Source: Salinibacter pepae
Lineage (GTDB): Bacteria; Bacteroidota; Rhodothermia; Rhodothermales; Salinibacteraceae
Direction: 5' to 3'
DNA: 64,000 bases
Assembly (NCBI RefSeq): GCF_947077775.1
Contig: NZ_CAMTTE010000001.1
Location: forward strand, 3,252,501 to 3,316,500
The notes under the pieces were generated by a model that worked only from the letters and a program-made list of their open reading frames with translations, ran no database searches and was not told the origin of the DNA. Below are positions 5,019 through 64,000 of the stretch, in pieces; the stretch's first letter is position 1, and each line of letters opens with the position of its first letter. The position numbers and the translations under genes are program-made.

Positions 5019-5091
<73 letters not shown>

Positions 5092-13753: not shown

Positions 13754-13761
13754 GTACGCTG

Positions 13762-14127
13762 TGGAGATGCCGGGAGTCGAACCCGGGTCCGTGTAGCCGC
13801 ACAGGCAAACCTCTACCTGCATAGTGGACGCATTGGTGGTTCACGGCGCCCGTCTGCCCATCCACGAGGCCAGGGCGGCGCTGAGACTGGTTAAATTTCA
13901 CCGGCGCATCCGCAGTCGGAGAACGCGGCGGCTACACCCTTTTTGTCGATGTCTCACGCTCCCCAAGGGCCAGGAGCGACGCGAGACAGATGGGGGCTGT
14001 TACGCCGCCATCGCGTACGAATAATCGTCCGCAGTTACAGTTCCTGACAGGTTTTACGAAGCGAATCAGGCTGCTCGGCAGGTCAGTCTGCTGCACGCTT
14101 ACTACACGTCGAAGCCGTGTCATCCCC
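13762..14127 (-). ncRNA. ssrA: tmRNA (transfer-messenger RNA)
   Basis: A 366-nt one-piece tmRNA. The 5' end reads GGGGATGACACGGCTTCGAC, and the 3' end is a T-arm with GGGTTCGACTCCCG closing on CATCTCC plus discriminator A. The acceptor strands pair with a G-U at the third position; CCA is not encoded. The tag reading frame is at 14000-14032: resume codon GCG, peptide ADDYSYAMAA, then TAA. With SmpB it rescues stalled ribosomes and marks the product for proteolysis. The tag matches the one I recall for Salinibacter ruber. Confidence 0.97.
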
Positions 14128-57725: not shown

Positions 57726-59240
57726 ATGCTCGATTCCGTTTCCACCTCCTCAATTGCCGCACGCGCGCCCCGTTCGGACCGGCAATCGCAGCTGGACGCC
57801 CTCCGCCGCGCTTTTACCGGGCTCGACACCGAGTACCCGCTGGCCGACGGCACGACGGCCCCGCGCACCTACCTCGACAGTGCCGCATCGACCCTGCGCT
57901 GCAGCGCGGCCGACGACATCGTCCGGCGGGCCCTCCGCCACTACGCCAACACACACTCGACGCTGCACGCCGGGGCCCGCATCATGACCCACCTCTACGA
58001 ACAGGCGCACGAGATTGTGGGGCGCTTCGTGGACGCCCCGGACGACTACACAACGGTCTTCACCGGGAGTGGGGTGACGGGCGGCCTCAACCGCATGGCC
58101 CGCGTGCTGGCCGAGCGGCGGCCCGAGCGTGACCTCGTCATCACCACCCTCATGGAGCACCACGCCAACGACCTGCCCCACCGCAAGCACGTCGGCGAGG
58201 TGGTGCACGTGCCGTTGGAAAACGATCCGGACGGGGAGGCCGGACGCGTGGACCTTTCTGCGTTGCGGGCCGCCATCGACGAGCACGCCGACCGGCTGAA
58301 CTACGTGGCCGTCACGGCGGCGTCGAACGTGACCGGCATCGTCAACCCGGTCCACGAGGTCGCCCGGCACGCCCACGCGGCGGGCGCCCTGTGTGTGGTC
58401 GACGCCGCCCAATCGGCCGCCCACGTGCCGATCAGCGTGCAGGGACCCGACGCGGCCGAGGCGCTCGACGTCGTGTGCATGAGCGGGCACAAACTCTACG
58501 CGCCCGGCAGCCCCGGTGTGATCGTGGCCCGGGAGGCCCTTTTCGAGGGGCTGGAGCCGCAGGTGGTGGGGGGCGGCATCGTGGATCGGGTGGAGACGGA
58601 CCGCTACAAGATTACAGACGCGCTGCCGGAGCGGGAGGAGGCGGGCACGCCCAACCTGCCCGGGGCGCTGCGGCTGGCCGCTACGCTGCAGCTGCTGGGC
58701 CGCATTGGCATGGACCTCGTGGCGGAGGACGAGCGCGAGCTGGCCCAGTACGCGCTGGAGCGCTTCGCGGCGATCGACGGCCTCACGATCTACGGGTCCC
58801 ACCGGCTGGAGGTGGCCGACCGGATCGGGGTCATCGCCTTCAACCTCGCGGACCTGCCGCACGGCCTCGTGGCCGCGGCGCTGAACGACTACTTCGGCGT
58901 CGCCGTGCGCAACGAATGCTTCTGTGCGCAGCCCTTCGTGCGCGACTTGTTGGGCCGAGCGAGCACTCCCGGAGGGGCCGCCGGCGGCGCGGAGTGTGGG
59001 CCCGAGACGCAGCCGGGCATGGTGCGGGCCTCCCTCGGCCTGTACAATACGGAGCAGGACATCGATGCGGCCGTCAAGGCGCTGTCCGACCTTGCCGCCC
59101 GGCCCGACTGGTACCGGGAGCAGTACCGCCCCCGCCTCGACGGCAGTGGCGACTGGGTCCACCGCTCGTTCGAGCACCCGCCCGGGCAGGCGTTCTCGTT
59201 GGAGGAGGAGGTGGACGCGTGGCTTCAGTCGGCCACCTAG
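57726..59240 (+). CDS. Cysteine desulfurase-like aminotransferase class V protein
   Basis: 504 residues. The PLP fold-type I order is seen: YLDSAASTLRC, the FTGSGVTGGLN cofactor loop, TLMEHHAND, VVDAAQSAAHVP (Asp/Gln contacts PLP), and the Schiff-base lysine in MSGHKLYAPGSPG. A reactive-cysteine loop like that of SufS/CsdA occurs at RNECFCAQPFVRDLLG. This suggests a cysteine desulfurase or selenocysteine lyase. Length is about 90 residues above SufS, with a C-terminal extension. No suf genes adjoin, so the role is not settled. Confidence 0.78.
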   Translation: MLDSVSTSSIAARAPRSDRQSQLDALRRAFTGLDTEYPLADGTTAPRTYLDSAASTLRCSAADDIVRRALRHYANTHSTLHAGARIMTHLYEQAHEIVGRFVDAPDDYTTVFTGSGVTGGLNRMARVLAERRPERDLVITTLMEHHANDLPHRKHVGEVVHVPLENDPDGEAGRVDLSALRAAIDEHADRLNYVAVTAASNVTGIVNPVHEVARHAHAAGALCVVDAAQSAAHVPISVQGPDAAEALDVVCMSGHKLYAPGSPGVIVAREALFEGLEPQVVGGGIVDRVETDRYKITDALPEREEAGTPNLPGALRLAATLQLLGRIGMDLVAEDERELAQYALERFAAIDGLTIYGSHRLEVADRIGVIAFNLADLPHGLVAAALNDYFGVAVRNECFCAQPFVRDLLGRASTPGGAAGGAECGPETQPGMVRASLGLYNTEQDIDAAVKALSDLAARPDWYREQYRPRLDGSGDWVHRSFEHPPGQAFSLEEEVDAWLQSAT

Positions 59241-62795: not shown

Positions 62796-62831
62796 GGCGA
62801 ATTGCATCTGCGAGCCGAGGCAAATACCTTG

Positions 62832-62920
62832 CAGGCCTGGCCAGGGGTACCCGTTGCTCGTCGAGCACGGGCTGAGACATACCCTTCGAACCTGATCCGG
62901 CTCGCACCGGCGCAGGAAGT
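62832..62920 (+). promoter_or_regulatory. TPP riboswitch (THI element)
   Basis: The conserved thiamin pyrophosphate aptamer core is present in order: GGGGTACCCG, a P3 hairpin GCTCGTCGAGC, then GGGCTGAGA, ACCCTTCGAACCTGATCCGG, and CCGGCGCAGGAAG. The P4 arm CCGG/CCGG closes correctly. It sits just upstream of the short-chain dehydrogenase on the same strand. A GTGC-TTCG-GCAC hairpin follows at 62919-62930, without a T-run, so control of translation is more likely than termination. Confidence 0.93.
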
Positions 62921-63004
62921 GCTTCGGCACCGTCCGGAGACGCGTGCATGAGCGACGTACCGTCTGGCTCTACCGTATTCCTCGTACCAGGAAGCCAGTC
63001 TCTC

Positions 63005-63769
63005 ATGCGTGATCTCGACTCGCAAGTTGTCGTCATCACCGGGGCCAGCCGTGGGCTCGGCGCCGCCATTGCCCGGGCCTTCGGGCGGGAGGGCGCCCGC
63101 GTGGTGGTCAACTACTACCAGAGCCCGGATCGGGCCGAGGCCGTCGCCGCCGACATCGGCGACCGGGCCCTGCCCGTCCAGGCCGATGTGCGCGACCCGG
63201 ACGCCGTGCAGGCGATGATCGACACCGCCACGGGCCACTTCGGGGCGCCCGTCACGACCGCCGTCCACAATGCCCTGATCGACTACCAGTTCGACGCGGC
63301 ACATCGGGAGACCGCCGATACCATCGACTGGGCGGACTATCAGGCGCAGGTGGAGGGGTCGGTGAAGGGGGCCCTGCACCTGCTCCAGGCCTGCCTTCCC
63401 GAGATGCGGGCGGCGGGGGAGGGGCGGTTTGTGGGCATCAGCTCCAACCTCGTACAGGCCCCGGCCGTCCCGTACCACGACTACACCACCGGCAAGGCGG
63501 CCCTTCTCGGGTTCACGCGCAACATGGCGGGCGAGCTCGGAGCGGAGGGCATCACCGTGAACCTGGTGTCGGGCGGGCTGCTCGACGAGACGGACGCCAG
63601 CGCGGCCTCGTCGGACGCCGTGTTCGACGCCATCCGCCAGAACACCCCGCGCGGCACGGTGACCACCCCGGAGGAGGTGGCCGACGCGGTGCTCTTCTTC
63701 GCGTCCCCCTGGGCCCGGGCCGTCACGGGGCAGAACCTGATCGTGGACGGCGGCCTCGTGATGCAGTAG
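63005..63769 (+). CDS. Short-chain dehydrogenase/reductase under TPP riboswitch control
   Basis: 254 residues from ATG at 63005; an ATG at 62948 gives a 19-residue extension without signal character, so the start is not certain. Rossmann motif ITGASRGLGAAIA, cofactor segment VVVNYY, catalytic Ser in GISSNLVQ and Tyr/Lys in YHDYTTGKAAL, and the end motif VDGGLVMQ place it in the classical SDR group, close to 3-oxoacyl-ACP reductases. The riboswitch implies a thiamin-related role. I recall thiamin-regulated SDRs called oarX in comparative studies. Its reaction is unknown. Confidence 0.88.
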   Translation: MRDLDSQVVVITGASRGLGAAIARAFGREGARVVVNYYQSPDRAEAVAADIGDRALPVQADVRDPDAVQAMIDTATGHFGAPVTTAVHNALIDYQFDAAHRETADTIDWADYQAQVEGSVKGALHLLQACLPEMRAAGEGRFVGISSNLVQAPAVPYHDYTTGKAALLGFTRNMAGELGAEGITVNLVSGGLLDETDASAASSDAVFDAIRQNTPRGTVTTPEEVADAVLFFASPWARAVTGQNLIVDGGLVMQ

Positions 63770-63811: not shown

Positions 63812-64000
63812 GTGATTCTTCTTGCCCTCGAAACCGCAACTTCCACCTGTGGCGCGGCCGTCCTGGACGGCGACACGGTGGTTGCGGAGGCCCACCTCCA
63901 CCGCCCCCGTGTGCACGCCGAGCGCCTGACCCCGCTGGTCGAAGATGTGCTCGACCACGCCGACGCGACGCCGGCGGCCCTGGATGCCGTGGCCGCATCG
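63812..64000 (+). CDS. tsaB: tRNA threonylcarbamoyladenosine biosynthesis protein TsaB, N-terminal part
   Basis: The gene starts at GTG 63812 and runs off the right edge; 63 residues are visible. The opening ILLALETATSTCGAAVLDGD and HRPRVHAERLTPLVEDVL match TsaB (YeaZ), the partner of TsaD in making the t6A modification of tRNAs decoding ANN codons. The gap to the SDR stop is 42 bp on the same strand, so read-through co-transcription from the riboswitch-controlled gene is possible. Confidence 0.88.
   Translation, partial: MILLALETATSTCGAAVLDGDTVVAEAHLHRPRVHAERLTPLVEDVLDHADATPAALDAVAAS

Follow-up and report, generated by a model that had tools for sequence, protein, structure and literature searches.

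A homologue of 3-oxoacyl-ACP reductase named oarX was reportedly described in 2002, by comparative genomics, as thiamin-regulated under THI elements. In the open-licence literature we find no paper pairing oarX with thiamin. The characterised TPP-controlled pathway of pyrimidine salvage includes, to our knowledge, no short-chain dehydrogenase/reductase (SDR). The words oxidoreductase and dehydrogenase are absent from the main text of one paper on that salvage (PMC10470507), and in PMC7793946, the one further paper found with both terms, TPP riboswitch and short-chain dehydrogenase occur in unrelated places. PMC11452348 argues that ThiV transports HMP in SAR11. A pairing of riboswitch and enzyme has been described in Corynebacterium glutamicum: the 5' UTR of cg0825, which codes for a putative short-chain oxidoreductase, has a TPP riboswitch that was predicted with Rfam at 63.54 bits and seen by RNAseq, and the role of the gene is left open (PMC3890552).

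The window, meaning the whole stretch of 64,000 nucleotides of Salinibacter pepae DNA that was analysed, has these features.

62833–62936, + strand: TPP riboswitch aptamer (THI element, RF00059) with a short P1, a full-model match by cmscan
62948–63004, + strand: in-frame extension from the ATG at 62948, giving a 273-aa ORF; probably untranslated leader
63005–63769, + strand: short-chain dehydrogenase/reductase of the NF006393 (PRK08642) family, 254 aa, by NCBIfam profile
63812–64000, continuing past the window end, + strand: start of a TsaB/TsaD-like gene (PF00814, 92.2 bits), possibly co-transcribed with the SDR
57726–59240, + strand: SufS-like aminotransferase, at 260.8 bits well below the SufS cut-off of 475.1
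13759–14127, − strand: tmRNA, from the default Rfam scan
5019–5091, + strand: tRNA, from the default Rfam scan

The aptamer and the gene that follows it

The default Rfam scan of the window lists the tmRNA and the tRNA only. It omits the aptamer because 62833–62936 scores 51.9 bits (E = 1.2 × 10−9 in a 281-base search), which is below the RF00059 gathering score of 54.3 bits. A sequence-only reading had proposed a TPP riboswitch followed by an SDR gene, and had named a covariance score below threshold as evidence against it. To the letter that is the score we obtain; the riboswitch conclusion is kept because the scores of orthologous leaders reach 74.9 bits. The same reading called the aptamer core complete, which holds for the binding core: GCTGAGA, ACCCTT, GAACCTGATC and P4/P5 are all found, the conserved core (P2, GCUGAGA, P4/P5, GAACCUGAUC) is present within a full-length match, and the TPP core is common to the aligned aptamer regions in two alignments (n = 33 and n = 45). 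It is an overstatement for P1, which has about 3 bp with a mismatch, and the stretch after P4 is 1 base shorter than consensus.

To ask how regularly the two elements go together, the sample is 27 Salinibacteraceae genomes, 14 of them of high quality; some are only 56–90% complete, so that the absence of a single gene is weak evidence. Members of NF006393 occur in 18 of the 27 and in 12 of the high-quality 14, being absent from G041 and G074. A TPP aptamer lies directly 5' of the SDR in all 17 genomes with enough contig; the eighteenth SDR (G064) is partial, begins at a contig edge and is left out. These 17 sites score 49.2–74.9 bits, 12 above 54.3 and 5 below (G000, G013, G024, G066, G069), the window aptamer being among the 5. 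Because the SDR is led by an aptamer in every testable genome, and above the cut-off in 12 of the 17, the predicted aptamer of the window is genuine despite its score, and the proposed order of riboswitch and SDR gene is confirmed. The rest of the order, sampled with 53 genomes, has a more distant SDR member in 5 of them, at 51–55% identity, with no aptamer found there within the available flank.

The window SDR scores 420 bits against the NF006393 cut-off of 292, and 173.5 bits to Pfam adh_short_C2. Classical SDRs carry TGxxxGxG, a catalytic Ser and YxxxK, and here we find TGASRGLG, Ser147, Tyr160 and Lys164, with Ser, Ala or Thr apparently at the place of the tetrad Asn in the alignment as read by eye. 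The AlphaFold model has a mean pLDDT of 87.7 and a pTM of 0.88. Sequence and structure searches with the SDR return generic SDRs and no substrate hint. Translation most likely starts at the ATG at 63005, which is shared with relatives, rather than at the in-frame ATG at 62948, whose offset is found in only G000, G013 and G069 among 17 Salinibacteraceae leaders. Lying inside a riboswitch leader, the ATG at 62948 may lure gene callers to start 57 nt early. The TsaB/TsaD-like gene begins 42 nt 3' of the SDR stop, and such a gene is downstream in 9 of the 18 Salinibacteraceae SDR loci examined, a few short loci being among them.

Candidate switching helices in the leader

Three short arms of the leader could form alternative helices.

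62839–62844, + strand: GGCCAG, the proposed arm for an anti-sequestor in the TPP-free state, lying at the aptamer's 5' edge and complementary to 62964–62969
62964–62969, + strand: CTGGCT, proposed switching arm, able to pair with 62839–62844 or with 62993–62998
62993–62998, + strand: AGCCAG, 3' arm of a hairpin proposed as sequestor, the hairpin ending 6 nt 5' of the start codon

In the proposed mechanism, the GGCCAG arm of the aptamer would pair with CTGGCT when TPP is scarce. With TPP bound, the aptamer would retain its own 5' arm, and the freed CTGGCT would pair with AGCCAG just 5' of the start codon. The direction of control that we infer is that plentiful TPP would turn the SDR down, most likely at translation.

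Support for these helices comes from comparison. In 15 of the 17 Salinibacteraceae leaders, a CTGGCTTC-like arm complements the 5' arm of the aptamer; G060 and G066 had been dropped before the count as their homologous arm was not found. The other partner before the start codon is GAAGCC in 11 of these 15, while G063, G077, G078 and G079 have a different, partly poorer arm; the 3' arms of the sequestor were chosen by visual inspection, those of G063 and G078 being poor. Over the 15 leaders, the anti-sequestor has standard pairs in 92.5% of cells, with 3 of 3000 permutations as high, and the sequestor, with its arms chosen by eye, in 85.8%, with 25 of 3000 as high. A measure counting changes on both sides of a pair is not above permutation for the anti-sequestor (1532 of 3000 as high) or the sequestor (2188 of 3000). 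When single leaders are shuffled, 8 of the 17 are matched or bettered by at most 10 of 200 shuffles, and the window's own anti-sequestor duplex is not significant by that measure (88 of 200).

Ligand-free constrained folds of 62822–63022 give −70.2 kcal/mol with the anti-sequestor and −66.1 kcal/mol with the aptamer plus sequestor, the free minimum being −71.4 kcal/mol; ligand binding could bridge the gap between the two. The anti-sequestor fold keeps TTCCT paired with AGGAA 5' of the start codon. By eye, the Salinibacteraceae leaders have no hairpin with a T run after it, and this, along with the TsaB-like gene so close behind the SDR, favors translational control without proving it. The conserved alternative pairing of the leader appears to fit the same mode of control.

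Thiamin genes and riboswitch neighbors

Among the 27 Salinibacteraceae genomes, ThiD and the ThiE family are found in all 27 and ThiG in 26, each with 14 of 14 in the high-quality set. ThiC is found in one genome (G034; 1 of the high-quality 14), ThiM in none of the 27 and none of the 14, and the FMN monooxygenase family in none of the 27. Control genomes (n = 14) match ThiC in 13, ThiG in 10, ThiE in 11, ThiD in 13, ThiM in 9, and the FMN monooxygenase in 3. With ThiM missing, ThiG kept, and ThiC nearly absent, a salvaged thiazole alcohol would have no kinase, thiazole would be made de novo, and HMP would have to be acquired.

TPP sites in Salinibacteraceae number 55, with 17 leading the SDR and 38 others. 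TenA is directly led by 23 of the 38 and a ThiY-like protein by 7. The one site leading thiC is in G034, the sole Salinibacteraceae genome with that gene. Another 6 lead a large ORF (L068, L073, L077, L086, L093, L094); the two tested, from L068 and L077, are TonB-dependent receptors, the one in L077 followed by a sodium symporter. Two further TPP sites in the genome of the window (3.63 Mb) lead tenA and a ThiY-like gene. The ThiY-like binding protein led by G000:C1:2806448-2806570 (L002, L005) has as its nearest solved relative a protein that binds N-formyl-aminomethylpyrimidine (5.9 × 10−25). Its PF09084 match had nominated a Thi5-type HMP-P synthase, which we set aside, as THI13/THI5 match at 4.8 × 10−12 and weaker. 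The other identified TPP targets are mostly pyrimidine genes, and we read this regulon, from its gene content, as probably serving the acquisition of pyrimidine, SDR included. The suggestion of the sequence-only reading that the enzyme might supply a missing salvage step agrees with this inventory, and for its other suggestion, a TPP-linked reduction, we find no support.

Three smaller observations belong with these sites. TPP-led large ORFs are present in the SDR-less high-quality genomes G041 and G074 and also in the SDR-bearing G024 and G069. The last of the 38, the weak TPP match L098 (46.8 bits) in G069, is followed after about 1 kb by a gene for a second TenA, a divergent one with 33% identity. 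At the ThiY-like site, the downstream neighbor tested is a DUF427 gene and not a transporter part.

For relatives from several phyla, we take the best 80 named loci of a GTDB genome scan, ranked by likeness to the SDR alignment; this is no census, and L100–L104 among them group with Salinibacteraceae. With the TPP model R1, the SDR has an upstream aptamer of its own in 45 of these best 80 loci, in most no more than 250 nt away (about 420 nt in L133 and about 650 nt in L106). A further 8 have the SDR in a thiM-thiE-thiD-SDR operon whose leading aptamer is some 2.4 kb upstream, the only aptamer in 2 is divergent, and 25 have none; one of the 25 (L132) has two bases upstream, too few to judge by. 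R1 was built from alignment A4, with 40 of its 45 regions drawn from these same best 80 loci, so that R1 matches there by construction. Rfam gives a score above gathering at 11 of the 13 own-aptamer loci outside A4, the exceptions being L131 and L147, and no TPP match in the 17 of the 25 R1-negative loci that were run, all but L154, L155, L157, L160, L168, L174, L175 and L178. On the SDR tree (89 rows), the own-aptamer label changes 10 times against a shuffled mean of 29.6. Among the best 80 loci, the thiamin-controlled SDR is present in Bacteroidota, Firmicutes, Actinobacteria and Proteobacteria, and the earlier proposal that the enzyme is tied to thiamin status is borne out by this gene context.

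Neighbors in the best 80 loci were sought by tblastn in flanks of up to 4 kb, less at contig ends. In 27 loci, an NtaA/DmoA-family FMN monooxygenase (TIGR03860) lies at most 300 nt 3' of the SDR; L162 makes a 28th, with the monooxygenase match starting 19 nt before the SDR match ends. The L141 protein (L141:4756-6090) scores 542.9 bits to TIGR03860. A ThiV-like sodium symporter is nearby in 10 loci. At 14, the SDR has thiM, thiD or thiE no farther than about 4 kb away, and in L107, L109 and L110 from Firmicutes thiM comes directly 3' of it. None of these genes, symporter and monooxygenase included, is found at the 25 aptamer-less loci. In the 28 loci, the TPP-controlled SDR and the FMN monooxygenase after it make up an uncharacterised thiamin-related operon, in some with a TPP-led ThiV-like symporter nearby. 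Aptamer-less SDR relatives in Stenotrophomonas, Burkholderia and Caulobacter (such as L120, L135, L175) have none of these neighbors within about 4 kb, and their function may differ.

Role of the SDR and comparison with known systems

The main reading, to which we give a probability of about 0.5, is that a genuine TPP riboswitch represses the SDR, most likely at translation, and that the SDR acts in thiamin-precursor salvage, here in the pyrimidine (HMP) branch, with reduction of a carbonyl pyrimidine the likeliest reaction. What computation establishes is the aptamer with its conserved position, the SDR family, the gene inventory and the operon partners; the branch, the reaction and the cofactor are what we infer. 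The enzyme would belong to a widespread, uncharacterised thiamin-regulated family distinct from FabG, and would most likely use NADPH to reduce the pyrimidine in some carbonyl form; as an example, it might convert 4-amino-2-methylpyrimidine-5-carbaldehyde to HMP, which ThiD would then phosphorylate. The lack of ThiC and ThiM with retention of ThiG, ThiE and ThiD, and the mostly pyrimidine TPP targets, argue for pyrimidine salvage, perhaps by reduction of the HMP aldehyde. A role as replacement for ThiC is set aside: G034 and C. glutamicum have both ThiC and the SDR, which is therefore not tied to ThiC loss.

Against a pyrimidine-only reading, the thiM/thiD/thiE context in 14 of the best 80 loci fits a thiazole substrate equally, and the SDR might then reduce an oxidised, aldehyde form of hydroxyethylthiazole for phosphorylation by ThiM. 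The loci with thiM directly after the SDR speak for this; we nevertheless consider it unlikely, because in Salinibacteraceae, with ThiM nowhere and ThiG nearly everywhere, 17 of 27 genomes keep the TPP-led SDR, and because thiD and thiE share operons with thiM, which makes the context less than thiazole-specific. Lower still do we rate an ordinary FabG-like 3-oxoacyl-ACP reductase, tuned to thiamin since acyl supply needs TPP enzymes. The NCBIfam title of NF006393 suggests it, and the best PDB matches by sequence and by fold are FabG; the window SDR has the same classical fold, with its best structural matches about 27–34% identical. However, it scores below the curated FabG equivalog cut-offs (133.1 vs 297.75 bits for TIGR01830, 157.1 vs 296 for PRK05653.1-3), its regulation differs, and the recurring neighbors are thiamin genes, the FMN monooxygenase and the symporter, fab genes lying outside the neighbor search.

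A rival of another kind, similarly improbable in our view, holds that in the clade of the window the aptamer is decaying, its core kept by recent descent, its P1 too weak, and thiamin control lost in the species. Of 6 possible P1 pairs, the sites in G000, G013 and G024, at 49.7–51.9 bits, do form no more than 3 or 4, with at most one formed pair contiguous with the core. A P1 of 3 pairs is also found in G077, G078 and G079, relatives at 62–68 bits, which weakens the idea that the weak P1 is peculiar to the window. Decay is also countered by a core that is unchanged in these species, while P3 has changed without losing its pairing (by eye, L008 compared with L009), and by the persistence of the leader arms.

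The main reading of pyrimidine salvage has a more speculative extension, which we think doubtful: that the TPP-SDR pair marks an unrecognised oxidative salvage route for the thiamin pyrimidine, with monooxygenase, ThiV and SDR steps. In Actinobacteria and Proteobacteria, the 5-aldehyde would arise from N- or S-substituted pyrimidine fragments through cleavage by the partner NtaA/DmoA-type FMN monooxygenase. Pyrimidine would enter by way of ThiV, and reduction of the aldehyde by the SDR would yield HMP. In Salinibacteraceae the reductase would operate alone, on aldehyde supplied from outside.

Compared with known systems, the locus is like the TPP-controlled pyrimidine salvage of TenA, YlmB, ThiY and ThiV in having the same regulator and the same missing precursor. 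It is like cg0825 in having a TPP riboswitch directly 5' of a short-chain oxidoreductase, and cg0825 is very probably of the same SDR family; this rests on a genome-level match, C. glutamicum being the only one of the 14 control genomes matching NF006393 at E = 10−60, and not on the cg0825 protein itself. The C. glutamicum genome differs in matching ThiC, ThiM and the FMN monooxygenase, none of which, apart from ThiC in one genome, is found in the 27 Salinibacteraceae. The pairing is thus already known from cg0825 and the window is another case, with function open there too. Judged against the open-licence literature, what is added here is the breadth of the pairing, the operon partners, the branch argument, and a candidate expression platform. 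By separating the pyrimidine branch from the thiazole branch, the Salinibacteraceae inventory turns an open annotation into a question of two substrates.
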